DNA of 64,000 nt, from the NCBI RefSeq assembly GCF_026151205.1, contig NC_087076.1:11818902-11882901 (forward strand), written 5' to 3'. The position numbers and the translations under genes were made by a program. This DNA comes from Bolinopsis microptera. Taxonomy: Eukaryota; Ctenophora; Tentaculata; Lobata; Bolinopsidae. Shown in pieces: positions 11,858-59,700 of the stretch (the first letter of the stretch is position 1; each line of letters opens with the position of its first letter). The notes beneath the pieces are model-generated. The model had not been told where the DNA came from. It searched no databases and saw only the letters and a program-made list of their open reading frames with translations.

Positions 11858-14800
11858 TTATCTGTTAGAGAATATATTGGTGATATTCTCGATCAGTTGA
11901 TCAGTAGATGGTCTTTCAGAAGGCTCCACGACCAAACAGGACTTTATTAACTCTATGAATTTGTTCGAGTAGATACTGAAATTATTTAGTGAGTTGATAT
12001 ATAAGGAGGTTGAATTTTGAGTGTTTTACAGTTTGAGATTCAACATTTAAAAATTACTTAGAATTAAATACCGTGCCCATGAATTAAATATAAATTGCCA
12101 CATTATATCGAGGATTCCTGTCTCGAGGTCAGAAGAACTTTTATTCTCCAAGTATAATATAATTATATAATACATAATATATATATAATATATTTTTAAT
12201 ATATAATATGTATATAATATATATATTATATAGTACATATTATATATTATAAATATATTATATATATATATATATATATATTATGATTGGCTACTGGGAC
12301 ACGTCATACACACGGTTGGATTGTTAATTCGGTTGAAGTACCTTTACATCCATTATCACCATAATCTGAACATGATTTATTAAAAATTTGCAATATTGAA
12401 AACGAAAAATCTGAATAAACTAAATATATATATATATATAATATAAGTATAATATATAATATACAAATGTATAATATATGTATAATGACATTGTTTTACT
12501 CACTGTTCTTTTGGTACTCGTATTCTGCCACTCACTGCTGCAGTGGCGCTGCCGTCAAATGGACTCTCGCCTAACGAATTGGAGAGTTAATATGTCAAGG
12601 CAAAACAAAGTGATGTTAGTGAATCCTCATGATTCATCAGAGGGATGAATATTTTTATCTCCACCAACGATGACTAAAACTTGAAAAAATACGGCCAAGT
12701 ACTTGTAGTAAGGAGTTAAATGATTCTAAAAGGTAAAGTTAGCGCCGAATTAAATTTAATTGTGAGTATAAATAGAAAATTATACTTATTATTTTAGGAA
12801 ACTCACCAAAAGCGACAGCGAACATTGTACAACCGACACTCCAAATATCCACAGCCTCTGTAATAGTGCAATCCGAGGGCACCTGAAATTAGGAGTTTAT
12901 TACTACTGGCCCTTCGTTATAGAAGCGTATTATCTTAATCATATCTTAATTATGCTAATTATTCCTTTTTATTAAGTTACACTTTAAAATGATCAATTCT
13001 CAAACAAAAAATCGTTTGTTCTTGTCGATATACAATTCATTTAGATTCTTTACAGATTGACCTTGTAACAAATAAAACAAGCTGATGGCTGTAAAAATCG
13101 GCACATTATAAAACGGTAAAACTTAATCAACATTCAAATAACGACACAATAACTACTGTACCCAATTTAAACGATTTGCTCAGCAAGTTTTGCTAAAATC
13201 TTAATTATTATTGGACACGCATGAAATGAAGATTTTGAGAGAGAACATTATTTTCAGTGGTATTTCTAGTCTTAACTACCGAGTTGTCCTGAAGTGTGCC
13301 AGAAGCTTCCACAATCCACATCAAACCTGACGACTTAGATTAAATCAGACGTTTCCCTAAACATTTACAAATAACCTTCAATAGAATCATCCCAAGATAA
13401 TAATTAATAAACCAAAGAGGACAATTAAAAAACAATAAGAAGTTAGTATCTGTTTAAATATAAATCATCTTTTTTAATCAAAAATAAAAACGATTACGTA
13501 CACCTAAATAATATTACGTTATTATATCTATATTTTTATATATTATAAGACTATCAAATAAAAGTAGGAAGAAAGATATAACATTAAATACTAAACATTA
13601 TTTCGTTTAACCCCCGAAAGAACAGCGAGGAATTAGAGTAGAAAAATAAATAATTATGGAACTTTAATAATAATATTTAACAGCTTATTCGACTAAACAA
13701 CCATTAAGTTTTCACCACAACATTTATCGAGCGTCAATAATAACGGGACAAACAATTTGATGGCAAACGTTCCCTCTCGCGCGTTTCAGTACGGCTATCA
13801 GAGTATACAGCACCGTCTACTGAACATGCCAATTATCAACACAATTCAAGACCTTTTCAAGACAGGTAATCACCAAGAAAAACCCACCCAAACATCTCAA
13901 GAATAACAAAGCAGGCCCCAATTACTATTAATTACTCGCTAATTGGGCCAATTAGTAACCTCAATCCTCTTCATCTTCATCGTATTCCTGAGAAAACTCA
14001 GTTGCTTGGTTTTTAACGATCTCGTGATACTCCTCTATGTCGGCAGTATAAATTGCGTAAGCTTCACTATTAGCCGGTTTATCGAGATTAGGATCATCCA
14101 GCAGTCTCTGAGCTCCTAACAAAATGTCCCTAACTGTTATCTGGGGGTACCAGCCTTTATCTTCCTCTAGAAAAGACAGGGCAATAGTTCCTGATGGGAA
14201 CACGTTAGGGTGAAATATCTCAGGAACAAACCGGGCTCTAGGCGGACTATCAGGGTAGTTCATGCTGAACTCTAGGATTATATAATACTGACCCCCTTCC
14301 CAGGAGGTCCCCTCCACACCCGGTATGGAGCACTCCCAAAACAGATAGTTCATTGTACCGTCTAGGTTACTGACGGGTTTGGCTGCAAAGTCACGAGGGT
14401 GATTGTGTTTCCATTGCTGGTATTCTTCTGTAAGTCTGGATACAGCTATAGACATTTCCCTATCAAGAAGAGAGTTATTTTTAATAGTGTTATCATGAAC
14501 AGTGTAATTATTAATTCTAATGGCAAATAACAATTATTTCATGTGGCAAAATGGAGAGACACGTATAATTGCGATTCTCTTGTGAACAAACAATAGACTC
14601 GTCGTAGGATGGTTGCTCGAGTGTTGTACGAGATGTCAGGTTTCAACAGCAAGTGTATGTACATTATCTGTCTCACTGTCATCACAGTTGGGAATGTACA
14701 CATTAAAATATAATATCTATCAACATTAAGTATGAAATACGTAAACGATTAACACAGCAAACAGTTCTGATCAAGTGACATCTCAATCTAACAGATTCCA

Positions 14801-17165
14801 GACTAAAAAGATGCACAGTAGTTTTATCAACGCAACAACCGATAATAAATCGCACCGGGAAAATTCCCAAAATTAGGTGTCAGTTATTAGGACAAACCGG
14901 GATCCAGAGGTGACATATGACACCGGACAAGGTGCGGATAGGAAACCTCGCTAAGGCTGTAATTAGTACGTGGAACAGTTTATAATAATTTCATTATTAT
15001 CAAAAATTGTACATAACTCAGCGGTAATTAACACTCGTTTAGCAAATGATACAGATCGTGGTTTGCTGACGCTACAGTGTTTGGTTAACAAATCATGGTA
15101 TCCAGGATTACACACAACTCATCGGCCGTCACCACATATGGAGAAATGCTGGCTAAGTTGGGCTGGGGTCGCCAGGGGTCCCCATCTTAAAACCTGCCCC
15201 ATCATCCAAACATCTATCTAAAACATACCCAAATCAAATACACCCCCCCCCCCCCCCCCCCCCATTAAAAAAGTTGTAACAAGTAAGTTAACCTCAAAGA
15301 GTTCAGGAGCCCGGTAGGAGGAGGTGGAGTTAACAGCAGCAAGTTCCTGGAGAGCAACCGCCTCCTTTCTGCTGGAGATAGTGACCTGAGCCTCAGATAC
15401 ACTGCCCAAATCAGCTAACAACACCAGGTCACTGTCTGTCAGCATCATGTTTCCTGGCTGTAAGGGGTTCTGTCACAATCTTATCTCACGGACAACGCAT
15501 CAAGATACAATCCATTTTTCGCGCGCTGGTGAGTTTTGAAACTTAGGCAGATTGTGAGAGAAGATAAGGATAAGATAAGGAGATAAGGATATAATGTCTA
15601 TCAGAGTCTGATGTCCTTCACTTCCAGGCTACCTGACTTAGCTACCTCATATAATGTGAACTCATGCAGATATAATACTTATACCGTAGTTTCAGACTGA
15701 CCTTGATGTCCCTGTGAGCAAGTCCCCTGTTGTGGAAGGAAGCAGCAGCTTTACACAGCTGCACTGTCCAATCCAGGATCTGTTTCTCTGTCACGTGTCC
15801 CTTAGTTGTGAAGTTCCTCGTTAGAATGTCTTGAACACTTCCTTTCTGACAAATAGGTCTCATTCAAAGATCTGGGAATTAGTAGAAATTGTATCGCAAC
15901 AGCACATCACAAACAAGAAAATTGTTCTATCAGAACATTTTACAACTGTTCAACCAAAACTACCACCGCGCCTACTCCATCCAGTATTAACTCCTACACC
16001 AGCGTACGTACTTAGATCCGAACAGGTACACATAAAAAGTAGATATAACTAATTATATATAATTAGTTATACAATTAAAACCTTCATAAGAGGAAAGAGG
16101 AGGTAAGCCATCTTGTCTTGTCCGGCCTTGATCACATAGCAGTGATCCAATAGCTCCATAACGTGACTGCTGGTGACCTTCTTGTACGCGGACACCTCGC
16201 GTTCGATCGCTTCTTCCTGTTCCCTGCACTGCAACCTCACACATTTCTGTGGAACAAAAGGGTAAGATTATACAGAAATGTATAATATGTGTAATACTAA
16301 AGTAAGTAAGTAATTATACCGAGTTATGTGTACTATGTATATTATATCAGTGATACGGTTAGCTACCATCACAAAGTTGGAATCCAAGTTAAATGGAAAT
16401 AAACTCTGGTTAAAATAAGCTGTAGATGGGTAACGTGACGTCGACTAAGTGCAACTTTGGAATTTATAAAAAAGACCCACCCACCCCCTTCGCGGTACTA
16501 ACTGTTTTTTCGGATAATATTTAGGACACCCACCAGGGACAAAATGAGGGGGTTTTTTTGTTTTCAATGCAATCGAATTAGATAAAAAGTTACAAAAAAA
16601 GGAAAATGTTTTTAAGAAACCCAAAAAAAAGGAAAAAAAGCCTCAAAACCCCAATTAGAGGAAAAATGGGTTTTTTTGGGGTTGGACACCCCCCTTAGTA
16701 CCATGTACTAACTGTTTTTCTGGGAAATGAGCAGCAGATCCACGACTTAGTATACAAGTGCTAACTGCGTTTTGGAAGAAAATATGACCCACCCCCCACG
16801 TCACGTAAGATTCTGACTTTATGATCCCCCCCCCCCCCCCCCCAATATTTAAAAAACGTTTATATATTTCTCACCAATGCATAGCGTTGGTTGGAGCGGT
16901 CTCTTACTTCTACGACAAACGCGTAACCTAAAAATGGTTTAATCGTTATAATATTATAATAAGATAGATTGATAATGCAATCATAATCAAATAGTTGCTG
17001 ATTCAAATTCAAATTCGAGACAAATTGTTAGAACAAATTAACAAAAAACAACCAGGCCTCATCACTAAACGTACCGCCTTCCCCGATAGTTTTTACTTCG
17101 GTAAACTTCTTGCCGTTTATCCTGTACGACTTGCCAGGTCCAAGACAGGAGGAGAGACACTTCAT
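11858..17165 (-). CDS. STK16: STK16-like serine/threonine kinase (8 exons)
   Basis: Exons (5' to 3' on minus): 17165-17075, 16927-16875, 16246-16082, 15845-15702, 15457-15293, 12882-12807, 12570-12504, 11975-11858. All joins keep frame, giving 292 residues against about 305 in human STK16. In order it shows the glycine loop TIGEGGYAFV (split by intron 1), YALK with the ATP-binding lysine, HRDIKPGN in the catalytic loop, ADLGS (the DLG form typical of STK16), SYRAPELFE, AVDIWSVGC and AFGESPFD. The family (NAK kinases) is lipid-anchored at the Golgi and acts in secretion and actin control. The N-terminus MKCLSSCLG keeps cysteines that could be palmitoylated but lacks the Gly2 used for myristoylation in vertebrate STK16. 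Intron 5 hosts the UBC9-like gene. Exon 1 lies inside a tandem duplication, so an orphan copy sits at 21.4 kb. Confidence 0.88.
12130..12480. repeat. AT-dinucleotide-rich tracts in STK16 intron 7
   Basis: Runs of (TA)n and (ATAATAT)n at about 12165-12285 and 12423-12480 within the intron between exons 12504-12570 and 11858-11975. They are low-complexity and have no coding meaning. Confidence 0.75.
13961..14455 (-). CDS. UBC9-like E2-fold protein lacking the catalytic cysteine
   Basis: An intronless 164-residue ORF nested in STK16 intron 5, same strand. It aligns end to end with SUMO E2 UBC9 (158 aa): NLDGTMNYLFWECSIPG, TSWEGGQYY, the FHPN motif, LEEDKGWYPQITVRDILLG and SEAYAIY. The start at 14455 gives MSIAVSRL, like UBC9's MSGIALSRL. 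The active-site segment is PSGTIALSF where UBC9 has PSGTVCLSI: Cys93 is replaced by Ala92. Two other catalytic-pocket residues also change (Tyr87 to Phe86, Asp127 to Lys126). Asn85 of HPN and the backside His20 equivalent remain. The tail is acidic (EYDEDEED). It therefore should not form a SUMO thioester. A retrocopy that took on a non-catalytic, UEV-like role is an inference. A preserved full-length frame argues against simple decay. Confidence 0.85.
   Translation of the reverse strand: MSIAVSRLTEEYQQWKHNHPRDFAAKPVSNLDGTMNYLFWECSIPGVEGTSWEGGQYYIILEFSMNYPDSPPRARFVPEIFHPNVFPSGTIALSFLEEDKGWYPQITVRDILLGAQRLLDDPNLDKPANSEAYAIYTADIEEYHEIVKNQATEFSQEYDEDEED
15242..15263 (+). repeat. Poly(C) tract in STK16 intron
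   Basis: A run of about 22 C just 3' (minus strand) of the exon ending at 15293. Another C run lies at 16826-16843 next to exon 2. Run lengths in such homopolymers are unreliable in assemblies. Confidence 0.8.
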
Positions 17166-17236
17166 GTCATATCAAGAACTGTAGGAGACATTTAGGAAAA
17201 GTTTGACTGCCACATTGAGACATTGACTGCTCATAC

Positions 17237-17398
17237 GGGTCGTCCACATATAACGTAATCAGCCGAGGGGCCGGGGGTTCCCCAAATGATTACGCTAGTG
17301 TAATTTTGACACAATAGATATACGTGTAAAACTGATTACGGAGGAGGGAGGGGGTTACAAATTGTCCAAAAAGTGATTACGTAATATGTGAACGACCC
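17237..17398. mobile_element. Short MITE between STK16 and ARMC8 (unit 1 copy)
   Basis: A 162-bp element with roughly 25-bp terminal inverted repeats beginning GGGTCGTCCACATATAACGT, paired with a right end that differs at two positions. It lies just upstream of STK16 exon 1. It is duplicated with the host segment at 21520-21681. Confidence 0.65.
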
Positions 17399-18331
17399 CT
17401 AATGGTCGGGTCCAATGTAGATTGTGAATTTCCAATTAGAGTTAGAATTTTTCCCCGAGGTATTTGGGCGAGAATGGTGTCGACACTACAGTTTTTGTGG
17501 GTTCAAACATATTTTCAAAAAACCATCATCACAAAACTTCACATAGAAATTCACTAATAAATAAAATGTAAACTCAGAAAAGGCGTCTAAACAAAGAGCT
17601 ACGTAATCATGAAGTTGTTAGGTACATCTGAACATGAAAGCAATTTACGAAATCGAACATCTTTCAATCAATTTGACCATATAATAAGGAATAGGAGGTA
17701 AGAAAAATTGTCTGTTTCAAACAACAGAGTGTTTGAATAAACATAAGGCAGATTTAAAAGTTTCAAGAAAAAGGCTGAATGAAGAAAATCAGATTGTACT
17801 GTATTTGATTAATCATAATCTGTGCGAGACTTCAAAGTCCCTAAATGTCTTATATTAGTGAATTTTGCATAGCATGAGTTACGAGTCCTGTTACATCGTG
17901 TAAGTAACATTGCTTGAGTTACGATTTGTGTAACCATGGAAACAAACCATCATACAAAATGTTTTAAAACAAACCCAGTCTAAAAGCTACTTATCATTAA
18001 ACTGAAGAAAAAAACAACTTAACATTCAAGTTCATTAACTGAAACACTTTCGCGGTACTCCACTCTAAAACCACACAAATCACAGTCTTCAATCTCAATT
18101 GGTTCCGTTTAATGATTATAAACAACCGGTTTAGAGATTATAAACAACCGGTTTAGTGATTATAAACAACAAGTTTCGGACTTATCTTATACAAGTATCA
18201 GTTTTCAATTAATCAAGCCATGTAATGGTATCTGATTGTTGAGTCTGTCTTACTATTCTCCCAACAGCGCAACTCTAAATCTCTGACTCTCCTATCTGAT
18301 TTCTCTCTTTCACAAACTGTGGTTGATCTCA

Positions 18332-18360
18332 GGATGACGTCATCGTGATGACGTCACATC
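18332..18360. promoter_or_regulatory. Paired CRE-type sites plus E-box between ARMC8 and STK16
   Basis: Two full TGACGTCA palindromes 11 bp apart, followed by TCACGTGA, immediately 3' of the ARMC8 stop and about 1.2 kb upstream of the STK16 start. They match CREB/ATF and bHLH consensus sites. Their position could serve the ARMC8 3' UTR or a distal STK16 promoter; function is inferred from sequence only. An identical copy lies at 22615-22643. Confidence 0.4.
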
Positions 18361-18366
18361 ACGTGA

Positions 18367-21346
18367 CTATTGGAAGTACTGCAGAGCTATCTTGGCTCTG
18401 TCTGCTACCTCTGGTCGGGCTCCCAGCAGTGACTGCAGCTCCTTGAAGTGGCCCATTTCCTTGAGCTTGTTCTGCCGGTCCAGACATCCACTGTCTTCGC
18501 TCTTTACTAGATGTGTGATACACGTAGTTGCTGCTATCTAGATTAACATTCGGTCAGCAAATGAAATATTGTTAGAATCAGACCGTGGAGAACAATGTTA
18601 AAACAATAAAAATAATTAGATGTAAAATATTTTAATTAACATAATAATATAGCTATCAGCGTGACAAAGTAAACGATGTTATCGTCCAACTTAAAGTTTC
18701 ATGTGGATGTGTGAACAACAATCTTCAGTTGAGCAATCTTAGTTGAGCACTTTGCTGAAAGGAGAAATAAACACGCTTGTAATAACATTATATCTATATA
18801 GTTCACAGACCTGTAACTGGCTGTTGAGATGAGAAAGGAACCTCAAGAGACAGAGCATAAGATCGTCTCTCTCTGTCAGGAGATCCTTGGCAATGTGCCC
18901 GGTGGCGATGTTGATGAATACACACAGAACTTGTTCCTGCTCCTCATCACTCCACTTGTCACTGTTAGTCAGGATTGGGACAAGTGTCTTCAGAACTTCT
19001 CTCCCGTGCGATGTCATTATCCTGTGGGGTAGTGTCACGTGTAAAAGTGAGGTAGTGTCACGTGTTATAGTGGGGTAGTGTCACGTGTTATAGAGGTAGT
19101 GTCAGCTGTGTCACGTGTTATAGTGAGGTAGTGTCACGTGTTATAGTGAGGTAGTGTCACGTGTTATAGTGGGGTAGTGTCACGTGTTATAGTGAGGTAG
19201 TGTCACGTGTTATAGTGAGGTAGTGTCACGTGTTATAGTGAGGTAGTGTCACGTGTTATAGTGGGGTAGTGTCACGTGTTATAGTGGGGTAGTGTCACGC
19301 GTTATAGTGGGGTATTATCACGTGTTATAGTGAGGTAGTGTCACATGTTATAGTGACTAGTGAGGTAGTGTCACGTGTTATAGTGGGGTAGTGTCACGCG
19401 TTATAGTGGGCTAGTGTCACTGTTATAGTGGGGTAGTGTCACGTGTTATAGTGAGGTAGTGTCACGTGTTATAGTGAGGTAGTGTCACGTGTTATAGTGA
19501 GGTAGTGTCACGTGTTATAGTGAGGTAGTGTCACGTGTTATAGTGGGGTATTATCACGTGTTATAGTGGGTTAGTGTCACGTGTTATAGTGGGTTAGTGT
19601 CACGTGTTATAGTGGGCTAGTGTCACGTGTTATAGTGAGGTAGTGTCACGTGTTATAGTGAGGTAGTGTCACGTGTTATAGTGAGGTAGTGTCACGTGTT
19701 ATAGTGGGGTAGTGTCACGTGTTATAGTGAGGTAGTGTCACATGTTATAGTGAGGTAGTGTCACGTGTTATAGTGAGGTAGTGTCACGTGTTATAGTGAG
19801 GTAGTGTCACGTGGTATAGTGTAGAAGTCGCTTCATAAGTTCGCATGATCAACATATAGGGTTCGATCACCAGATAAAGTTAAAAAATAAAGTGTAGCAA
19901 ATAGAAGTAGAGAAGTAAATTACCTGTCAACTTCATCTGGGTCACAGAGTATATTTCGGAGTAAACCAAGTGCCTTTATCTTTAATTTCGGACAGTCGTC
20001 CTCAACTGTCTCCAGTATTTGGAGAACCCCAAACTAAAGTGGAGGGAATAGTTCAGTGGAATTCCTGGAATCAGTTTTTGGGTATTGAGAATGCGAATGT
20101 TATGCTCAGTGAAACATTATTTGTCTGTAATTTGACTGACGTGCGAGAGGATTTTAGATCGGAGATCAGAGTTAGCTTTGTAAGTGATGTTCATCAGAGC
20201 CCACACCCCGTTCAGTTTAACTTCATCGTCGGAGTTAAGGACCAGCTTTGAGAGCAGCTCCACTGTTCCTTCTTGTTCCAACAGGATCTCCTAAGGAGTT
20301 AAGTATTATGTTGACATATCATAACATTGGAGGAACCAGGAGGAAAATGAGTAGAGGGAAAATGAGTAGAGGGACAGAACAAATTTGCAAATTGTCATAC
20401 TCTGAAAATTTAGGGCTAATAGTAATATGTATAACAGGTTCTATTTAGTCTTACCTTGCTGGGTGAGAAATCAAGTAGGAGGTTACAGAGGGTTCTAGAG
20501 GAAGTCCTGACGAGCTCATCATCGTCAGTCTTAATGAGTTTGAGGAGTGGTTGCCACACTTCTGCGTCCAGTAGGTTGGTCCTCAGCTGTTTTACAGATC
20601 GTGACAAGGAGTGAAGACAGGACAGCGCTGCTACTTGTACCTGAACCATTATATTTATCAGTTAAAGTTGTTAAACTAATATCGTTATTTAAACAATCAT
20701 AACTATATAAGAGCTTAAGAGGTATATATGGTAAAGGGAATCATGGAACAAAAATGTTTTCGGAGCTCGCTTATGCACATTACTAAAATTATAAACAGTT
20801 CACATGATCCTACCTCCAGACTGTCGTCTTGTAAACCAAACTTCAGATGGGATATAATATTCTCCCCCTCAATGATGCTCTTTCTGATGTCCTCCTGCGT
20901 CTCACCCAACGCTGCAAACGCTTTAAAAGCAGCAGCTCTCAGTCGAGGAGAAAACTCAGGATCCTTGCTGGCGATGAAGAACCTGCTGAGTCCCCTCATC
21001 AGATGTTGTGAGTAGGAAGCCCACAGCTGTAACTCAGAATTCTGTTCGATCAGTTCATGAAGGAGATTAGCTCCGATGTGCTTGATGGCGATATCCTCTG
21101 AAAGACAGAGGTACACTATAGTGTCCAGAATCTGAGTTTTAGATCTCTCCTCGTTGATAGCTCCCAATCTGAAGAGGTTGGTAAGACACTTGGCCGCGTT
21201 ATACTGCACCAGAATATACTTATCTCTTCTCATAAGCTTGAACAGTCTCTTCACCAGTTTCTCATTACCTGCTACCTCCTGTGCCACAAAGTGATTGTCA
21301 TAAGACAGCTCTGATAGACAAAACAAGCCAGCCAGGTTAGACTGAG
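18367..21346 (-). pseudogene. 5'-truncated duplicate of ARMC8 (exons 3 partial to 8)
   Basis: Carries copies of ARMC8 exon 3 (only 20814-21346), exon 4 (20455-20640), exon 5 (20141-20290), exon 6 (19924-20033), exon 7 (18811-19021) and exon 8 (18367-18537). All reading frames and splice sites are intact as far as read. It lacks exons 1-2, the first two-fifths of exon 3 and the exon 3 acceptor. Exon 3 is instead joined directly to STK16 intron 1 sequence. It could be spliced only as extra downstream exons of the full gene or from the orphan STK16 promoter. Exon 4 begins in phase 0 whereas STK16 exon 1 ends in phase 1, so a direct splice between them would be out of frame. Confidence 0.88.
19022..19826. 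repeat. 23-bp minisatellite with CACGTG core, array 1
   Basis: Roughly 34 tandem units of GTGAGGTAGTGTCACGTGTT plus ATA, with variants (GGGG for GAGG, CACGCG for CACGTG, TATTATC for TAGTGTC). Nearly every unit contains the palindromic E-box CACGTG. It lies in the intron between ARMC8 exons 6 and 7 of the truncated copy. Confidence 0.92.
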
Positions 21347-21357
21347 AGTAAACGTAC

Positions 21358-21448
21358 CGCCTTCCCCGATAGTTTTTACTTCGGTAAACTTCTTGCCGTT
21401 TATCCTGTACGACTTGCCAGGTCCAAGACAGGAGGAGAGACACTTCAT
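21358..21448 (-). pseudogene. Orphan copy of STK16 exon 1
   Basis: Identical to the first coding exon of STK16 (ATG at 21448, MKCLSSCLG to TIGEG), with the same donor. Its proper downstream exons are absent: the next sequence on the minus strand is the truncated ARMC8 exon 3. Its upstream region (presumed STK16 promoter) is also duplicated, so it may still be transcribed. Read-through from its ATG into ARMC8 exon 3 is not in the ARMC8 frame. Confidence 0.85.
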
Positions 21449-22649
21449 GTCATATCAAGAACTGTAGGAGACATTTAGGAAAAGTTTGACTGCCACATTG
21501 AGACATTGACTGCTCATACGGGTCGTCCACATATAACGTAATCAGCCGAGGGGCCGGGGGTTCCCCAAATGATTACGCTAGTGTAATTTTGACACAATAG
21601 ATATACGTGTAAAACTGATTACGGAGGAGGGAGGGGGTTACAAATTGTCCAAAAAGTGATTACGTAATATGTGAACGACCCCTAATGGTCGGGTCCAATG
21701 TAGATTGTGAATTTCCAATTAGAGTTAGAATTTTTCCCCGAGGTATTTGGGCGAGAATGGTGTCGACACTACAGTTTTTGTGGGTTCAAACATATTTTCA
21801 AAAAACCATCATCACAAAACTTCACATAGAAATTCACTAATAAATAAAATGTAAACTCAGAAAAGGCGTCTAAACAAAGAGCTACGTAATCATGAAGTTG
21901 TTAGGTACATCTGAACATGAAAGCAATTTACGAAATCGAACATCTTTCAATCAATTTGACCATATAATAAGGAATAGGAGGTAAGAAAAATTGTCTGTTT
22001 CAAACAACAGAGTGTTTGAATAAACATAAGGCAGATTTAAAAGTTTCAAGAAAAAGGCTGAATGAAGAAAATCAGATTGTACTGTATTTGATTAATCATA
22101 ATCTGTGCGAGACTTCAAAGTCCCTAAATGTCTTATATTAGTGAATTTTGCATAGCATGAGTTACGAGTCCTGTTACATCGTGTAAGTAACATTGCTTGA
22201 GTTACGATTTGTGTAACCATGGAAACAAACCATCATACAAAATGTTTTAAAACAAACCCAGTCTAAAAGCTACTTATCATTAAACTGAAGAAAAAAACAA
22301 CTTAACATTCAAGTTCATTAACTGAAACACTTTCGCGGTACTCCACTCTAAAACCACACAAATCACAGTCTTCAATCTCAATTGGTTCCGTTTAATGATT
22401 ATAAACAACCGGTTTAGAGATTATAAACAACCGGTTTAGTGATTATAAACAACAAGTTTCGGACTTATCTTATACAAGTATCAGTTTTCAATTAATCAAG
22501 CCATGTAATGGTATCTGATTGTTGAGTCTGTCTTACTATTCTCCCAACAGCGCAACTCTAAATCTCTGACTCTCCTATCTGATTTCTCTCTTTCACAAAC
22601 TGTGGTTGATCTCAGGATGACGTCATCGTGATGACGTCACATCACGTGA

Positions 22650-25600
22650 CTATTGGAAGTACTGCAGAGCTATCTTGGCTCTGTCTGCTACCTCTGGTCG
22701 GGCTCCCAGCAGTGACTGCAGCTCCTTGAAGTGGCCCATTTCCTTGAGCTTGTTCTGCCGGTCCAGACATCCACTGTCTTCGCTCTTTACTAGATGTGTG
22801 ATACACGTAGTTGCTGCTATCTAGATTAACATTCGGTCAGCAAATGAAATATTGTTAGAATCAGACCGTGGAGAACAATGTTAAAACAATAAAAATAATT
22901 AGATGTAAAATATTTTAATTAACATAATAATATAGCTATCAGCGTGACAAAGTAAACGATGTTATCGTCCAACTTAAAGTTTCATGTGGATGTGTGAACA
23001 ACAATCTTCAGTTGAGCAATCTTAGTTGAGCACTTTGCTGAAAGGAGAAATAAACACGCTTGTAATAACATTATATCTATATAGTTCACAGACCTGTAAC
23101 TGGCTGTTGAGATGAGAAAGGAACCTCAAGAGACAGAGCATAAGATCGTCTCTCTCTGTCAGGAGATCCTTGGCAATGTGCCCGGTGGCGATGTTGATGA
23201 ATACACACAGAACTTGTTCCTGCTCCTCATCACTCCACTTGTCACTGTTAGTCAGGATTGGGACAAGTGTCTTCAGAACTTCTCTCCCGTGCGATGTCAT
23301 TATCCTGTGGGGTAGTGTCACGTGTAAAAGTGAGGTAGTGTCACGTGTTATAGTGGGGTAGTGTCACGTGTTATAGAGGTAGTGTCAGCTGTGTCACGTG
23401 TTATAGTGAGGTAGTGTCACGTGTTATAGTGAGGTAGTGTCACGTGTTATAGTGAGGTAGTGTCACGTGTTATAGTGGGGTAGTGTCACGTGTTATAGTG
23501 AGGTAGTGTCACGTGTTATAGTGGGGTAGTGTCACGTGTTATAGTGGGGTAGTGTCACGTGTTATAGTGAGGTAGTGTCACGTGTTATAGTGAGGTAGTG
23601 TCACGTGTTATAGTGGGGTAGTGTCACGTGTTATAGTGGGGTAGTGTCACGCGTTATAGTGGGGTATTATCACGTGTTATAGTGAGGTAGTGTCACATGT
23701 TATAGTGACTAGTGAGGTAGTGTCACGTGTTATAGTGGGGTAGTGTCACGCGTTATAGTGGGCTAGTGTCACTGTTATAGTGGGGTAGTGTCACGTGTTA
23801 TAGTGAGGTAGTGTCACGTGTTATAGTGAGGTAGTGTCACGTGTTATAGTGAGGTAGTGTCACGTGTTATAGTGAGGTAGTGTCACGTGTTATAGTGAGG
23901 TAGTGTCACGTGTTATAGTGAGGTAGTGTCACGTGTTATAGTGAGGTAGTGTCACGTGTTATAGTGGGGTATTATCACGTGTTATAGTGGGTTAGTGTCA
24001 CGTGTTATAGTGAGGTAGTGTCACGTGTTATAGTGAGGTAGTGTCACGTGTTATAGTGAGGTAGTGTCACGTGTTATAGTGAGGTAGTGTCACGTGTTAT
24101 AGTGAGGTAGTGTCACGTGTTATAGTGAGGTAGTGTCACGTGTTATAGTGGGGTATTATCACGTGTTATAGTGGGTTAGTGTCACGTGTTATAGTGAGGT
24201 AGTGTCACGTGTTATAGTGGGGTAGTGTCAAATGTTATAGTGAGGTAGTGTCACGTGTTATAGTGAGGTAGTGTCACGTGTTATAGTGAGGTAGTGTCAC
24301 GTGGTATAGTGTAGAAGTCGCTTCATAAGTTCGCATGATCAACATATAGGGTTCGATCACCAGATAAAGTTAAAAAATAAAGTGTAGCAAATAGAAGTAG
24401 AGAAGTAAATTACCTGTCAACTTCATCTGGGTCACAGAGTATATTTCGGAGTAAACCAAGTGCCTTTATCTTTAATTTCGGACAGTCGTCCTCAACTGTC
24501 TCCAGTATTTGGAGAACCCCAAACTAAAGTGGAGGGAATAGTTCAGTGGAATTCCTGGAATCAGTTTTTGGGTATTGAGAATGCGAATGTTATGCTCAGT
24601 GAAACATTATTTGTCTGTAATTTGACTGACGTGCGAGAGGATTTTAGATCGGAGATCAGAGTTAGCTTTGTAAGTGATGTTCATCAGAGCCCACACCCCG
24701 TTCAGTTTAACTTCATCGTCGGAGTTAAGGACCAGCTTTGAGAGCAGCTCCACTGTTCCTTCTTGTTCCAACAGGATCTCCTAAGGAGTTAAGTATTATG
24801 TTGACATATCATAACATTGGAGGAACCAGGAGGAAAATGAGTAGAGGGAAAATGAGTAGAGGGACAGAACAAATTTGCAAATTGTCATACTCTGAAAATT
24901 TAGGGCTAATAGTAATATGTATAACAGGTTCTATTTAGTCTTACCTTGCTGGGTGAGAAATCAAGTAGGAGGTTACAGAGGGTTCTAGAGGAAGTCCTGA
25001 CGAGCTCATCATCGTCAGTCTTAATGAGTTTGAGGAGTGGTTGCCACACTTCTGCGTCCAGTAGGTTGGTCCTCAGCTGTTTTACAGATCGTGACAAGGA
25101 GTGAAGACAGGACAGCGCTGCTACTTGTACCTGAACCATTATATTTATCAGTTAAAGTTGTTAAACTAATATCGTTATTTAAACAATCATAACTATATAA
25201 GAGCTTAAGAGGTATATATGGTAAAGGGAATCATGGAACAAAAATGTTTTCGGAGCTCGCTTATGCACATTACTAAAATTATAAACAGTTCACATGATCC
25301 TACCTCCAGACTGTCGTCTTGTAAACCAAACTTCAGATGGGATATAATATTCTCCCCCTCAATGATGCTCTTTCTGATGTCCTCCTGCGTCTCACCCAAC
25401 GCTGCAAACGCTTTAAAAGCAGCAGCTCTCAGTCGAGGAGAAAACTCAGGATCCTTGCTGGCGATGAAGAACCTGCTGAGTCCCCTCATCAGATGTTGTG
25501 AGTAGGAAGCCCACAGCTGTAACTCAGAATTCTGTTCGATCAGTTCATGAAGGAGATTAGCTCCGATGTGCTTGATGGCGATATCCTCTGAAAGACAGAG

Positions 25601-28600
25601 GTACACTATAGTGTCCAGAATCTGAGTTTTAGATCTCTCCTCGTTGATAGCTCCCAATCTGAAGAGGTTGGTAAGACACTTGGCCGCGTTATACTGCACC
25701 AGAATATACTTATCTCTTCTCATAAGCTTGAACAGTCTCTTCACCAGTTTCTCATTACCTGCTACCTCCTGTGCCACAAAGTGATTGTCATAAGACAGCT
25801 CTGATAGACAAAACAAGCCAGCCAGGTTAGACTGAGTGGACTCTGTTAAGAGGAGAGAGTTGATGTTGTTGAGGATGGGGGTTGTAAAGAGGATGGCTTG
25901 TTGCTCCCTAGACTTACACACACTCCCAATAATCATAGCACAACACTGGCCCGCTACCTCTGACGTCATCATCAGATCTATCAGCCTGGGAATGAAGTTA
26001 TCTATCTCCCAGAGGTTCTGACATTCTAAGTTGGGGTACTGGTAGATGGTCCTGATGGTTCGGAGACAGGCCTCCACCAACTTCTGTTCCTCCAGGAAGA
26101 TACCATCAATTAGAGTTTCCACCAGACCGGATGAGATGAGGTGCTCAACGTATTGTCTCCCACCATGAGCTAGAGAGTTACAAATGTAGGCTGCTTCCAC
26201 TGAGATTGGTGTAGAGTGCAGCTTTATCACACCTGAGATGACAAGTTTCAAATAATTAAACACTTCTGTTTCTTACGATAGTTCTAAAAATTGAAAATTC
26301 CCCTAAATGCATGTGAATGCTATTTGAATCTTAAACTTCCAAGACTTTCTGCTATTGCCATGGTTACAGGATCAGGATAATTATATGTACAGTAACGAAG
26401 TGCAGAACTTTAACTCCTCTACAGTCTACACGTCTAATAGATAACACAGCTATATATTGAACTACTTCTAACCAATATTCAGATTGTTAGAGCTCGCAAA
26501 CAAGTCCATCTGCACTGTATGCTAAACATGCCAGTTAACACGACCTAACCTTTAGTGGCCTGTGTTAGAGACCACGCTTTGTCTAACGGCCAGAATACAG
26601 GGACTATTTGAGGACACCTGGTTTATAATGTGACATGATGCCGCTCTCCTAGTTCCCTTACAAGTCCAATTGACAGCTTCACTGAACGTATGTACCTTCA
26701 CTAAACGGCACATACTCGAATAACGCTTAGATAAGTTCTTAGTTATTACTTGTTATAATATGTGACTGTTAGATAGTAAACTTTCTTCGCACGTGCATTA
26801 TGAGACAGGGTTTGACGTTGGTTCCACTATTTCCTGCACGAGCACAGTTTTAATATCCGGCCAGGTGTTCTGGATAAATACTAGGGAAGGTTCATGGTAA
26901 TCTGTAGCGGAAGTATTGGTGGACGACCTGGCACATTTCCATTACTGTTAGACGTTTCTCGTTGAGAGAATTGCTGGAGCATTTAAGGTAAAGCCTTTAA
27001 AACCTTACCTTACATCGGTTCCAGTTTGACATATCCAGTTTGTCATATCCCTTAAATTCTCACGTCTTTTCAATTTCTGTCCAGTTATTCAGTCTATAAA
27101 AATTTACGATGTGCTGGGATTGCACTATGACACTCCAATTTTTGATCATGGTAGTTTATATTCATCAGTTTCCCGTCATAAGACTATTTTGTAATCAGTT
27201 TCTTATTTCGCTCAATTACCTCCCAGGAATGACGCCGGAGAGGATAATCTCCCACGTGTGGTGTCACGTGTCTCTAATCCTGGGACTGACTGGAAACAGC
27301 TTCGTCCTCTACTCCACAACTCAACACCGAGCCATCAAGCTGGACAAACTCTCCGTCTGGATCATACAGAACTTGGCGGTCTCAGATCTGGCAAACACTA
27401 TCCTTATCTTGTTGCCAGTGATCATATCTCTGTATTGGAACAACACGTGGGTGCTGGGGGACACGTTTTGTGAGATAATGTTCGTCTACAAGTACATGGG
27501 CTGTGTAGCTAACATGGTTCTGATAAACGCTTTAGCTCTAAACAAGATGTTGAGGTGTCTGTTTCCACTGCGTATCTTAAACAGCTCCAGAACACAGCGA
27601 GTTTCAGTTTCAGTGCTGACCGTTGTTGGATCAATGATTATTCCAGTTTGGTCCTACTACGGAGCTTGTATTGAGAGGTATCTGGTAGTTGAATTCTCGA
27701 CCTCCCAATGTATGTGCTGGTCAATCTTCTCTTCGAAATCTAGAGGCTGGCACCACAGTGTAGGCTACTTCTTATCAGGGTTCCTCAACGCTCTACCATG
27801 TCTTTCACTCTGCGTTGTAAACACATTTCTAGTCGGCTACGCTCTCAAGAAAACAAACACTACAGTCAACAAGATGAACATAGTGATAGTTGTCATGGTA
27901 ACACTATCCTTCCTCCTCCCCATGCTCCCCTACTTTATCTACTACATGGTGCACGGCAACACGTGGGACAGTCACCCCTCTACTGTACGCTTCGTCACCT
28001 TTGTCATGTTCATGTCCTCCTGGGCCAACCCCCCTATCTACTTTCTCACTAATAAGAGTTTTAAGCTGTTTACCGTTAGTTTGGTGAGAAGGAATCGTGT
28101 TCAGCACCAGTCTGACTCCAAAGTGGCGATAAATGCGAGGAAGAATAACATGGGATACTCAGAAGCAAGGGTGGATACGAGAATTGGAAACGCCTCAGTG
28201 CTCGAATACAATGAAGTTCAATGACAAATATCAAATATCACTAAGAGAGGGACGTAGGACACACTCAGAATAGGTATGATAGACTTTCAGTCCTTGAAAC
28301 CGCATCAGGTGTCCTCTATATTAGAGTCCTCTAAATTAGAGTCTAATAACTAGGCTTTACGATCCTAACTATTCGGTGTGAGAAGCAGTATATAGACTGT
28401 TACAAATCATTGGTCAAATTATAACGCAAAACATAACATTTTATAACGTGGCGTCCAGAACTCATGAGGGTGTGCACATGTGAAGTTGCCCCAGTGTGTG
28501 CGATTATAACTAATTCTGATTAGCATTACACATTTGCAACTTGGCAGGTAACGTTCTAGCCACCAGCAGACTTACACCTGTGTACGTTTTGTTGAACAGC

Positions 28601-52231: not shown

Positions 52232-55200
52232 AGGATTATTGATTGAAATAAATTTTCGTGCACATACAGAATGAATGGTTAATGATTTAATATATATGTA
52301 GACCAAGCTCTGTGCACGGGATGCTTCCTGGAAGAATCCAGTTCTTTTAGCGGGGCACCCTACCTAAAGCCAAATTGAGATATAATAATCATATTCCTAG
52401 GGAAATAATCAGAAATCGAATAAATCAAATAATATGATATATAGGAGTAGTAACCATATTTACTATGCAAAATGCCCCAACCTCATAGTGTAAATTTATA
52501 TAAAATTCAAATTCCATACCTCCACTAAACCCCAACAGTCAACACAACAGCCCAAGCAAAATTAAATAACTTCTTATATACTGTCATACTACAAATTAAT
52601 TAAACATTTGAAATCTGTTAACCAGAGAATAAATTTCTAAACCTAATGCAAGTGAAATAATTTAGATGCAATAATGAATGCCTAATATGAGTATCATCTG
52701 TCAATGTCCTTGTAGAACAGTCTGTACAAGAGATATGAGTAACTAATATAGAAGGAAAAAAAACAGGAAGTTGTCGTCTGTTGGAAAATAAATAAAATAT
52801 CTAGTATATAAATTAGAATATAAAATAACATTCGGTCAATGTGTCGTCAATAAACTGTACAATTATCAAATGTTAAAACTGTACTGGGTGATACAGTCAC
52901 CAAAAATAAATACTAAGTATAATAAGTTAATAAATTAAATGTGGTCTGTAAAACTACCACTAGGTATAATAATAATTATTACCCATAGCTGCTTCGCAAC
53001 GAACAGATCAAAACATGTATCTCTAAGGCAAATCCTATGATTTGTTGTATTGTAAGGAATTTGGTTATCAGAGAAAAAGTTGTTATGATTACTATTATAT
53101 ATAAAGCTTTAATATGACCTCATCTTGAGTATTGTGTCCAATTGTGGAATCCACCTGCGGCTTATGGAAGTTGGGGGACTGTTTTGGAGCTGGAGAGCGT
53201 CCAGAGGCGGTTTACCCATCTGATTGATGATGTGGACACTCTTCCTTGCAGGCTACAGCATTAGACTGGAAATCTAAGTCTTATAAACCAGGAATCATCT
53301 TTCTTGTTCTTAAGAAGGCCTTTGACACAGTGAATCATGAAATATTGCTTCAAAAATTGGCATATTATGGAATTGGTGGCATTGCTTTAACCTGGTTTAA
53401 GAACTTCTTATCTTGTAGATATCAATGCACAAGGATCAATGGCAAAATAAGCTCATTTTTAGAAGTTCTGAGTGGTGTACCACAAGGAAGCATCATTGGG
53501 CCTATATTATTTAGTATCTTCATAAATGACATCATTTATGCCTGTAACCTATCTAAGCCCTTTCTATTTGCAGATGATGGTGCACTATTCTTTGATCAAA
53601 CCTGCAGAAGCACATTTATAAACATGAAAATAGAACTTATGACAATCTTTAAATGGCTCAGTGTTAATAAATTATCACTCAATGAAAAGAAGACTGAATT
53701 CCTATTGTTTGATTCTGTTGATCAACATGATGAATTAACCATTGAATGTAATGAGGTAACTTTCACAATCAAGGAGTGCAAAGAGACAAAATATCTTGGC
53801 CTCATTCTAGATAGTAAATTAAACTTCAAAAGCCATGTAGATTATATTATTAGGAAGGTCATGAAGAGAATTGGTGCCATGTATAGAAGCAAAGCACTGC
53901 TACCCATTAAATATAGGAAAATGTTTGCCAATGCACTCATGTTGCCACAATTCGATTATTTAGACACGATCTATTGTAGAGCTGGCAAGACAAAACTTGC
54001 TGAACTTGACACTCTGTACAAAAAGGTAGCCAAAATAGCTCTCAACGTTCCACAAACAGAGAGCAGCCTTAATGTTTATAGAGACATGAAATGGTTACCA
54101 CTCCATCTTAGACGACAACTCCATCTGTCTAATTATATGTTTAGAATCATCCATGACAATTGTCCTACAAACTTTATGAACAAATTTAGTTACATATCAG
54201 GAGGTAGTAGGAGCGGCGAAAGCTGCAACCTATATGTTAATAGATCAACATCACATAAAAACTTTCAATACTTGGGGGCAAAATGTTGGAATAATGTTCT
54301 ACGAAATCTGCCCGATGTTAAAAGCTTAAGTGATTAGTATAAGAAACAGCTACTCTCATCTATAACAACAGACCCTAATTACACCATCGACAATTCATAT
54401 GACAAATTTTACACTGCAATCATAGTCGACGATAACTAAGTATCTTCTTATTCTTTTAAATCTGAGGCATATATAATTTATGTCGAAAGGATATTCCCTT
54501 TTTGACCACCTTACCATTCTGATTGATTTTGCACATGACTGACATGTTTTAACTGGAGAAGGGATTCGCACAGTGGTAGTTTTATAAACCACTTTTAATT
54601 TATTGACCTATTATACCTAGTGGTAGTTTTATAGACCACATTTAATTTATTAACTTATCATACTTAGTATTTATTTTTGGTGACTGTATCACCCAGTTTT
54701 AACATTTGATAATTGTACAGTTCATTGACGACACATTGACTGAATGTTATTTTATATTCTAATTTATATTCTAGATATTTTATTTATTTTTCAACAGACG
54801 ACAACTTCCTGTTTTTTCTTCTATTTTAGTTACTCATATCTCTTGTACAGACTGTTTTACAAGGACATTGACAGATGATACTCACATTAGGCATTCATTA
54901 TTGCATCTAAATTATTTCACTTGCATTAGGTTTAGAAATTTATTCTCTGGTTAACAGATTTCAAATGTTTAATCAATTTGTAGTATGACAGTAAGGTATA
55001 TAAGAAGTTATTTAATTTTGCTTGGGCTATTATATTGACTATTGAGGTTTAATGATGATATGGAATTTGGATTCTATATAAATTTACACTATGTGGTTGG
55101 GGCATTTTGCATAGTAAATATGGTTACCACTCCTATACGTATATCATATTATTTGATTGGTATTCGATTTCTGATTATTTCTTAGGAATATGATTATTAT

Positions 55201-55352: not shown

Positions 55353-56152
55353 AATTTGACAAGGCTGACAGAGCGGCGAATACATGGGGACCTCATAGTA
55401 AAACAAAAATATAATGACGGCGCTGAGCCTAAACTAATGAATTCAAAATAAAATAAAAATTCCGTAGCAGAAGTAAAAGTTATTCTAAAAATATTTTTAT
55501 TTACTAAGTACTTGTATTCTCAATGTTTAAATTTAATAAATCGATAGTCCACAACGCTTTGTTTCTCATTGTAGCCCTGCCGCGCACTCGTGCGCAACAA
55601 CTTGAGTTACAATATTTTGCAAAAAATTATGTTTATAATTATGCTGAAAACCAAAGTTTTGTTTTAAATATGTTTTCATAATTTGGTAAAGATTGTTTTA
55701 AATAACTTGTACAAATTTCTTCGAAGTAATATTTGCTAATTCAGGGCAATACTTAAATTCAGTTATATTAATATTATATACAATCGGTGTGTTTATGGTT
55801 TATAAACACATAGCCTTCATGGATTCCCAAGTAAAATAAAAAAGTGAGAAGAATAGAAGTAAATCTGAAAATTCATGGAAAATAAATACAAGGGATTAAA
55901 TCTAACTAGTTGTTTATGTGTTATGTGCCGCTTTATTTTACAGTGCGATATAATATTTAAATCAGTTAAAATACAAAATAAACGCGCGGCATGTTAATTT
56001 AATTATGCGCGGTGTACCAATTTTTTATTTACATTTTTGATTTTACATTTTATGCATATCATTTAAACCGAAAAACATTAATCACGCAGAATGAATAATA
56101 TAATATTGTTTCTTGCCCCATAGGAGTTTGTTTCTTGCCCCATAGGAGTTTT
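55353..56152. other. AT-rich spacer with a 22-bp tandem pair
   Basis: Nothing is recognised except two adjacent copies of TTTCTTGCCCCATAGGAGTT at about 56109-56150, just before the LINE insertion point. Confidence 0.4.
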
Positions 56153-56163
56153 CTTTATTCGCT

Positions 56164-56770
56164 GATCAAACATTGTAGGTTAACGGCATCGGGTTCCATC
56201 ACATTTGAATTTGAGGATGAAAACACAGCTAAAACTGTGCAGTCTAACTGGAAAACCAGTCATTTTGGTGGTAATAAAGGTATGAAAATACCAGGTGACT
56301 ATAACACTGTTGCCATGGTTAAGCATGTGTATGATGATCACAACGAGGATGATATGAAAAGGGATATTATGCAGAATTACCCTGGTATAGTCACTAAGTG
56401 TGAATTTCAACAGAAGAGGTCTGATAAATCATTCAATGGAATGATCAAACTAGAATTTTCATCACGAGAAGCAATGACAAAAGTTATAACAGACAAGATA
56501 AAGTTTTGCCATCAACGCTACATAGTTGAAGAGTACAAAAGAAAGTCTAGGGTAATCAAGTGCAACAAGTGCCAAGGTTGGGGACATATTCACCGATATT
56601 GTACCAAACCAGCTAAGTGCGGTAAATGTGCAGAAAACCATGAAAGCAATAGCTGTCCAATAACTAGTGGCTTCAAATGTGCACATTGCAAGGAAGATCA
56701 TCAAGCAGGTTCTTTTGACTGTGCAGTGTACAAAGAGAAATTGGCTAAGTTCTCCCATGATGCATTATGA
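56164..56770 (+). pseudogene. LINE ORF1 (5'-truncated), Gag-like with three zinc knuckles
   Basis: Open to 56770 with no usable ATG because the element is truncated. It has an RRM-like N-terminal part, then three knuckles: CNKCQGWGHIHRYC, CGKCAENHESNSC (CCHC type) and CAHCKEDHQAGSFDC. In Jockey- and I-type elements such ORF1 proteins bind the RNA template. The stop overlaps the ORF2 start as ATGA. Confidence 0.82.
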
Positions 56771-59700
56771 TCAAAAATCATAACTCAATCGGAAATGCTG
56801 AAAATAACACTGTGCTTGGAAAATTCTGCACAATAAACATCTGTGGTCTATCTCAAAGAAGCAACATGATGCTAAGCAAGTATGCGTCTGATAACGACAT
56901 TCTTCTTTTTGGTGTGCAGGAGACTGGTAGTAGCAGCCAGTGGAAATCACTAACCAACATGAAAACCTTTGAAGATACAAATAAGAATAGCAACAAAGGA
57001 TGTGCAATTATTGTCAAACAAGAAGTCATGTTCACACAGCTTCCTGTTATCTCACATATTTCATCCAATATTGACTCGGTTTGGGGAATATTATCTTGGA
57101 ACGGCAAGAGGTACATAATTGGGAACCTTTACCTGAAACTAGACTATCTATCAGGTGTCAAAGAGATGCTGGTAATGCTTGATAAGGCAAATGAACTTAG
57201 TAGGTTTTACAAATGTGCAGGTGTGATTGCTATGGGGGATTTTAATGCTCGCCATTATATTTGGAATGATACTGTGGTAAATAAGTACGGAAAATATATT
57301 GAAGAACATCTAGACTGGTCTAAGTTCTGTGTGCATGCATCTTCCTCAAGTACATTTTTGGCAAGGAATGGTAGCAGTCATATCGACTTTTTTATCACAT
57401 CCACTCAACTTGATAAATATCTAGATCATCCAATTGCAGATCATTTTGCTAATTTGTACAGTGGTGCTCCCCTGAGAGGTCATGTCCCAATCTCAATCAA
57501 TATCCAAGTACAACCTGTGGCAATCAGGTCAGAGAATGTTAAGAAGTATAACCTTCAATCAATGGACTGGTTCAACTGGACTAGAGACATAGAGCTTGAC
57601 CTGAAAATTGAAAAAATTGACATCTTAGCTACTGATGGGACTATCAAGGAACTGCTGGAGGCCATTAACACAGCTATTGATGTTTCCACAAAAGAAAACT
57701 GCCAAATGAAATGTGTCTCCAAACACAGCAAACCGTACTGGACCCCCAAGCTATCGCTACTCTCTGACAGACTCATATTGGATCTCAAATCATATCTATC
57801 CAGAAATACTGACTCAGCCTTTGAAGCTCTGCAGGCTTCCAAGAAAGAATTTGAGGAAGCAAGAAAGCAGGCATGTCAGCAGTTTATTCTTCGAAAGACA
57901 AATGACCTTAACACTTCTCAGGCAAAAAAGTTCTGGAAGGAGTTTAATAAGCTTTTCAAACCCCCATCAGATCAGATGGTTGAAGCTCTTATATCGGAGG
58001 ATGGAACTATTCTTACAGAAAATGCTGACATTGAGAAAGAAATGTTTGAAACATTTTTCCAGGCTAAACACATCGAAAATAATATCGATAAATTCGATGA
58101 TGCTTTCTTTCAGGATATAAACAAACTGTATGATGACATAAAATATAAAAACTTTCAACCCAGTGCAACTGAGGCAATGGCAGATAGGTTTACTAACAGC
58201 TCCACCCTTTATTGCCCTGTTACACCATGGGAGGTCTCTGCTACTCTGAAAGGCATTCAATCAACAGCCGCTAGTTTTGATAACCACGAAGTGCATCAGT
58301 CTATGCTAAAGAAACTAGGTCCGATTGCAATTCATGCACTAAGCAAGCTTTTTACGCTCTGCCTGCGAAATGGGCTCTGGCTGTGGAACGATTCTAAGAT
58401 TGTGTTTCTCAAAAAAGACGGAAAGTCATCATATTCCCAAGCAGGTGCATACAGGCCCATTTCAATATCTTCATATGTAGGGAAACTGTTTGAACGAATC
58501 CTGGCACGACGACTTGATATATATCTTATGAAAGTGGGACTTACGGATGTAAATCAGGAAGGATTCTCAAAAGGCAAGAATACTATTAGATACCTCAATC
58601 GACTGACTGTTGGTATTAAAGGTGATATTATAAAGAAGCTTACGGTACTTTGCTTGTTTATCGACTTCGAAAAGGCATTTGATTCCGTCTGGAAGAAAGG
58701 TCTAATTGTTAAGCTCTGGAGAGCTGGTGTTCATGGCTGTTACCTAAAAACTATAGACAGTTTTCTATTTGGTCGCACAGTGTGCCTATTAATAAATGGA
58801 TTCCTTGGCCCTGTTAGGGACTGCTTGGACTATGGGTTACCACAAGGATCTGTGCTGTCTCCTATTTTGTTTAAATTCTTCATTATGGATATTGAGGCAG
58901 TCTGTTCAGTGTACCAACAAATAAGTGTGTTAAAATTCGCTGATGATGGTACTGTGAAAGTGGTTGGTAGAGACTTGGAAGAGTGCCTTTTCTATCTCAA
59001 CCTGGCTATGGACAGCATTGAATATTGGACCTCCTGTTGGCGCATGGTTATTAACTGCAACAAAAATAAGACTGAAATTATATGCTTCAACTGCTATGAT
59101 CATGCTGGAGTCCCGACTTCATTCAACCTTGGAGGGAAAACAATTCAGTTAACGGATCAGACAAGGGTTCTTGGTGTCATTTTGGACAGTAAGCTAACCT
59201 TCAAACAGCATAGCAAGTATGTATACAACAATCTAGTATACCGCTGGGTTTGTATGAGCCGTTATGCAAACAGAAACTGGGGCATGAACCAAGCAGTTAT
59301 AGTGAGAGTGACCAAAACAATTCTGTTCTCGACCTTGTTTTATGGTTCTACCATATGGATGAACAATTCAAATATGTCAGACATAAACAAACTATGGTAC
59401 AGAGTGTCTAAAGCTGCAGTTGGAGCTGTTTTCAACGTCCATGGGGCCATTCTTGAAGTCATTCTGGGTGTGCCACCACTCCAAACTTTGGGAAGAATAA
59501 TCTCGATCAAACACTACCTCAAGGTTCTCCATGACTCAAATGACATTCACTACGACTTTGTGAAAACTCAGCTAAATGAAAAGAACCCAACAGTGCTCTG
59601 TCATCTCCGAGAGGTGCAGAAGTTCCTACAATGGAAAGCAGAACATTTTAACACAGAAGTTCAGGCCTGTGACCTCGGTGAAATCAGCCACAGAAACCTG

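Follow-up and report, generated by a model that had tools for sequence, protein, structure and literature searches.

An intronless UBC9-like frame without the catalytic cysteine in an STK16 intron of the ctenophore Bolinopsis microptera, possibly kept for a non-catalytic role

Background

Schemes of SUMO conjugation generally show just one E2. Proteins with an E2 fold and no catalytic Cys include UBE2V/Mms2 (a UEV), TSG101 and AKTIP/FTS, and a UEV forms a pair with a catalytic E2, in which it sets the orientation of the modifier. An open frame in a stretch of 64,000 nucleotides from Bolinopsis microptera (hereafter, the window) raises a key question: can the SUMO E2 itself give rise to a protein of this kind that is then kept, or is the frame a dead copy, a part of its host gene or an error? 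The initial annotation proposed a non-catalytic, UEV-like role in SUMO binding or E2 regulation rather than decay, with only the catalytic pocket altered.

Identity and genomic setting of the frame

The frame, which we refer to as UBC9L, reads from ATG to TGA on the minus strand (Table 1) and encodes 164 residues with 0 internal stops; the plus strand of the same interval contains 5 stops. It is intronless and carries no frameshift, and its start, stop and full-length frame are all present. The Pfam UQ_con domain was matched by residues 7-149 with 127 bits. In the PDB, 280 sequences were matched; among the best 60 of these, SUMO E2s made up all of the top 28 (152.6-188.8 bits), and the next E2 scored 94.5 bits. 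The homology with UBC9 E2s is co-linear over the full length, with HPN, PSGT and WEC in common, in agreement with the full-length SUMO-E2-like frame that had been annotated. NCBIfam, a prokaryote library, gave no match. In the assembly (264.65 Mb, 232 contigs, with the window on contig C5), the DNA search found this locus once.

Table 1 Features of the UBC9L locus, in window positions
Feature	Position	Strand	Basis
UBC9L ORF, 164 aa plus stop, intronless	13961..14455	minus	
Ala92 codon GCC, aligned with catalytic Cys93	14180..14182	minus	alignment to UBC9
Acidic C-terminal tail EYDEDEED	13964..13987	minus	sequence
AG of putative 3' splice acceptor (CTCTCTTCTTGATAG/GGAAATG), ATG 4 nt downstream	14460..14461	minus	inferred from sequence
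ATTAAA, candidate poly(A) signal ~290 nt past the stop; weak, AT-rich surroundings	13663..13668	minus	
STK16 host intron, GT...AG, 2410 nt, holding UBC9L on the same strand	12883..15292	minus	
Downstream STK16 exon (VPSDCTITEAVDIWSVGCTMFAVAFG)	12807..12882	minus	edges from splice sites
Upstream STK16 exon (PGNMMLTDSDLVLLADLGS...SSYRAPELFE), 165 nt	15293..15457	minus	edges from splice sites

The location within an STK16 intron, also part of the initial annotation, was confirmed when the three flanking exons were joined by splice-site reading: the best PDB match was human STK16 (2buj, E 1.5e-29), and the next kinases followed at 3e-13. Such a location raises the possibility that UBC9L is an alternative last exon of STK16 and no gene of its own. 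It lies on the same strand, within the intron, and a candidate acceptor precedes its ATG, as this possibility would have it. However, the upstream exon terminates on a codon boundary, and its splicing to the candidate acceptor would therefore, by our reading, be out of frame with UBC9L. Moreover, according to the excerpt of PMC8527503, the ctenophore Hormiphora has 2357 nested intronic genes in 1654 hosts, many of them parallel to the host, and a spliced leader on 56% of Iso-Seq reads, which is called a lower bound there. Since parallel nested genes and leader use are this common in Hormiphora, the setting of UBC9L is ordinary for a ctenophore, although the setting is all that UBC9L shares with those genes as described. 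We consider an alternative last exon highly improbable.

A search of this genome for the ctenophore leader motif excerpted from PMC8527503 (22 bases, up to 3 mismatches), followed by GT, gave 31 forward and 12 reverse matches, and the reversed control gave 7 and 13, respectively; 12 of the 31 forward matches come from one tandem array, so the motif is a weak mark of a ctenophore genome. Half of the ligand domain of the Mnemiopsis leidyi iGluR ML032222a, used as a query, has a relative here with 77% identity over 127 residues. At C8:7889746-7895419, the leader-like motif GTTAAACAAACTAATTTGATGT is repeated 12 times, one per ~513 bases, and this array possibly represents tandem spliced-leader genes.

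A 2106-base repeat with zero mismatches occupies window positions 17066-19171 and 21349-23454, with the copies 4283 bases apart; both run into arrays of 23-base units, and by our reading the repeat takes in the STK16 first-exon region. On its sequence, it looks like a recent tandem duplication. Two open frames on the minus strand (20715-21443 and 25205-26263) have an armadillo-like C-terminal part in common. The shorter one starts with sequence also present at 17065-17166 in another frame on the STK16 strand, as if that duplication had joined them.

Parent gene and origin of the copy

A separate catalytic UBC9, which the initial annotation had suggested looking for in related genomes, was found in this genome at C8:12.977 Mb, with the active-site motif TVCLS, four coding exons of 139, 135, 77 and 126 nt and three coding introns. 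A second copy lies on a small contig (C34, 54 kb) and differs at 2/477 bases, both silent, so that the protein is identical; it is probably an unpurged allele. UBC9L is identical to this own UBC9 at 49.0% of positions (77/157), to human UBC9 at 51.9% (80/154) and to Brugia UBC9 at 52.2% (82/157), while own and human UBC9 share 79.2% (122/154). An exon near C1:8.235 Mb (DHINLRVIGQNNSEVHFRIKK) is SUMO-like, and we name it SUMO by our reading of its sequence. Other E2-like frames were also encountered: by our reading, those at C7:1.852 Mb (L027) and C5:17.237 Mb (L028) are AKTIP/FTS-like and lack the catalytic Cys, and a diverged open frame at C11:1.969 Mb (L031), behind a simple repeat, has IYHYLVGF around the HPN position.

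UBC9L is intronless and its parent has four coding exons on both C8 and C34, as expected of a retrogene. No poly(A) tail was seen in the sequence after the UBC9L stop, and the only candidates for a target-site duplication around the frame were short repeats indistinguishable from chance, so it is the missing introns that argue for retroposition. At the age of UBC9L, both a poly(A) remnant and a target-site duplication would be erased. Within the window, open frames which we read as being of the non-LTR retrotransposon type lie on the plus strand at 53246-54337 and 56135-60225; such elements could have supplied the reverse transcriptase behind retrocopies in this genome.

Relatives outside the genome were sought by pattern matching followed by tblastn. 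In the viral collection, UBC9L alone gave 5 pattern matches, the four-row UBC9 alignment 59 and another E2 exon of this genome 19, with 0 relatives by tblastn in each case. In the genome-contig collection, the four-row alignment gave 44 pattern matches and 4 bacterial E2-like loci, which are remote (25-36%).

Catalytic pocket and interaction surfaces

In the column of the catalytic Cys93, UBC9L has Ala92, encoded by GCC, and own UBC9 has TGT. With a difference at every base of this codon, Ala92 is beyond what one miscalled base could produce, and the change lies amid scores of other differences at a locus that the assembly holds once. We found no point in favor of UBC9L, or its Ala codon, being an assembly or base-calling error, and the chance of such an artefact is negligible. 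The sole Cys of UBC9L is Cys42, in the WEC motif. As UBC9L has no catalytic Cys, it cannot act as a SUMO E2, and we hold it to be almost certainly non-catalytic.

The catalytic residue set N85, Y87, C93 and D127 was taken from the excerpt of PMC4604453, and UBC9L keeps 1/4 of it: N85 is present, together with the changes Y87F, C93A and D127K. As excerpted, the same source states that mutations of N85, Y87 or D127 can equal the loss of Cys in severity, that Ube2I activity is unaltered by Y87F and that the D127 site is not strictly conserved among UEVs. Since Ube2I tolerates it, Y87F is no sign of catalytic loss, and D127K fits the state of UEVs at that site. HPN, PSGT and P128-A129 are retained (10/10 positions checked). 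The residues singled out by the initial annotation, namely, Ala for the catalytic Cys, Phe for Tyr87, Lys for Asp127, the retained Asn of HPN and backside His (His20), and the added acidic tail, were all found as described.

The accompanying view of changes confined to the catalytic pocket did not stand. UBC9L differs at 37/104 columns that are invariant among three catalytic UBC9s (own UBC9, human 2uyz and Brugia 4l83 only; residue 93, a Ser in the 2uyz chain, was scored as Cys), and many of these changes are radical. Its pI is 4.32 versus 9.13 for own UBC9, with 11 versus 24 K+R and 30 versus 19 D+E, and 15/22 basic residues of the human UBC9 fragment are no longer basic in UBC9L.

The backside SUMO contacts named in the excerpt of PMC8636563 are R13, R17, H20 and G23, the last being a main-chain contact; only H20 is kept (1/4), with R13Y, R17K and G23D at the others. 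The SP-RING-facing contacts come from the same excerpt, with yeast residues mapped onto the human column. Here, 6/8 are kept (I4, S7, R8, P69, E99 and P105) and two are strongly changed (S70D and R104Y), a retention not far above the 49% overall identity, with contact counts that are small. The third surface, which meets the SUMO motif of targets, includes ten positions in our count. One of them is K76, which we take to be a further UBC9 contact of that motif. The excerpt of PMC2928739 lists K74, Y87, S89, T91, C93 and D127-A131; with K76 added and C93 removed, 4/10 are kept. On the sequence, UBC9L is best retained in HPN, PSGT, P128-A129 and the E3 face; lost are its chemistry and the basic surface toward SUMO. 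An AlphaFold model built on the single sequence had a mean pLDDT of 40.3 and was discarded as unusable, so the UBC fold of UBC9L is deduced from sequence.

Selection and age

Another important question is whether UBC9L has been maintained by selection. Over 157 codons, UBC9L and own UBC9 differ at 63/47/104 first, second and third positions, respectively, and the same codon is used at 28/77 residues in common. The GY94 model gave an omega of 0.11 with a dS of 4.4 (saturated), and omega = 1 was rejected (2dlnL 56.3), which answers the dN/dS check proposed at the outset. Because the pairwise omega takes in the strongly constrained branch of the parent, the two branches were also simulated apart, with parent evolution added (30 cells of 60 runs each). 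A neutral UBC9L branch (omega 1, T=0.3) had 53% identity and 3.5 stops, with differences of ~39/39/56. The cells that came close to the observed values were omega 0.3 with T=1.2 (46% identity, 50/47/97), omega 0.2 with T=2.0 (43%, 56/51/105) and omega 0.1 with T=3.0 (49%, 49/44/105); omega 0.5 with T=0.8 was a poorer fit (44%, 50/51/89). None of the 30 cells fully reproduced the degree to which first-position differences outnumber second-position ones in the real pair. The simulations suggest an omega of ~0.1-0.3 on the UBC9L branch itself.

A simpler null without parent evolution, in which the frame decayed neutrally to 49% identity, remained stop-free in 0.98% of 5000 runs, and the third-position share of differences reached a maximum of 0.452 across 5000 neutral runs versus an observed 0.486. 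Retention in invariant columns (67/104) did not differ significantly from that in variable columns scored leniently (26/50; Fisher p 0.16). A count of derived and ancestral residues, which asked whether the copy predates ctenophores, yielded 2 derived residues common only to own UBC9 (A44S and C138T), 4 retained ancestral ones and 7 fitting neither.

A neutral processed pseudogene was considered as well and rejected, given an omega far from 1 and no disabling changes. Under these models, long decay of UBC9L is excluded, and it is very probably a gene that has been under long constraint. A different possibility is that UBC9L was long functional and recently died, losing its use so lately that stops have yet to accumulate. 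The many radical changes at otherwise invariant residues would suit this, and a recent loss of constraint is invisible with one genome; on the other hand, the start, stop and full-length frame are intact with no frameshift, and the GC content of the frame is 0.453 versus 0.307 and 0.391 in the two flanking parts of the intron. We regard recent death as unlikely and consider that UBC9L is probably functional still today. Thus, of the proposed role rather than decay, long purifying selection over long decay stands, and the exclusion of a recent death does not.

Discussion

In our preferred reading, an old retroposition of UBC9 gave rise to the paralogue UBC9L, which became a nested gene and was kept for a non-catalytic, binding-only role, and we hold this reading tentatively, at somewhat less than an even chance. 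Under this reading, UBC9 would have been copied via its spliced mRNA, and the copy became a nested gene in the STK16 intron. It would be transcribed on its own, with the candidate acceptor 4 nt ahead of the ATG possibly serving a trans-spliced leader. The product presumably retains the UBC fold without the capacity for a SUMO thioester, and its backside SUMO binding would be poor or nil. It may work via its best-kept face, that toward SP-RING E3s, as an adaptor or competitor modulating the real UBC9. This E3-side mechanism, suggested by the pattern of retained residues, is a possibility that we put forward as speculative. Slightly less likely still is the broader proposal that a ctenophore pseudo-E2 born from UBC9 tunes SUMO conjugation without catalysis, its charge-reversed UBC fold taking up SP-RING E3s or the surface of UBC9.

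Other binding roles have to be considered. UBC9L could bind SUMO or UBC9 non-covalently and tune conjugation as a UEV does. His20 and HPN are retained, an acidic UBC9L (pI 4.3) and a basic UBC9 (pI 9.1) could attract each other, and a mode of this kind exists in RSUME/RWDD3, which binds Ubc9 and raises its activity (excerpt of PMC9068994). Against such a role stand the substitutions R13Y, R17K and G23D among the four backside contacts excerpted from PMC8636563 and the loss of most basic residues of the human fragment. The first of these also argues against SUMO binding by the backside route of UBC9, as in the initial annotation, and direct SUMO binding appears less likely than was proposed there. 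We consider the UEV-like role unlikely. Somewhat less unlikely, though still improbable, is the recruitment of the UBC fold outside SUMO, for example, for binding a basic partner via the acidic surface and tail. The charge reversal and acidic tail suit this alternative, AKTIP/FTS-like Cys-less proteins are by our reading also present in the genome, and AKTIP works with ESCRT I (excerpt of PMC8428793). However, no given partner has positive support, and the SP-RING face, as mapped from the excerpted contacts, is rather well kept.

How does UBC9L compare with known proteins? It is of the E2 family by its UQ_con match and has Ala92 in place of the catalytic Cys, as UEVs lack theirs. It differs from UEVs in being derived from UBC9 itself and in retaining HPN, and any cognate E2 partner is putative. 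From UBC9/UBE2I, with 49-52% identity to three of them, it is set apart by the missing Cys, D127K, reversed charge, acidic tail and lack of introns. Human UBE2NL, which we take to be a young copy of UBE2N that has neither introns nor the active Cys, is a likeness in both respects, but it has a different parent, and UBC9L is saturated at synonymous sites. UEVs and other Cys-less E2-fold proteins share with UBC9L the E2 fold by sequence, the missing catalytic Cys and, as excerpted from PMC4604453, an unconstrained D127 site. RSUME/RWDD3 is likewise non-catalytic and E2-like: in the excerpt of PMC9068994, its RWD domain resembles UEVs and Ubc9, and it promotes SUMO conjugation and binds both Ubc9 and SUMO-1. 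UBC9L may work similarly, although RSUME has an RWD domain and is no UBC9 copy, and the two are compared here by their described properties. A conserved Cys-less UBC9 copy is named in none of the excerpts among the open-access literature matches listed. Cys-less E2-fold proteins and RSUME are already known, and a protein of this kind that stems from UBC9 itself and has long been constrained appears to be new in the open-access literature so excerpted.

If long kept, UBC9L would show that the SUMO E2 can itself give rise to a pseudo-E2, and the surfaces for E3, SUMO and catalysis are told apart in its sequence by their evolutionary retention. If the broader proposal above is true, UBC9L would be a counterpart of the UEVs born within the SUMO pathway.
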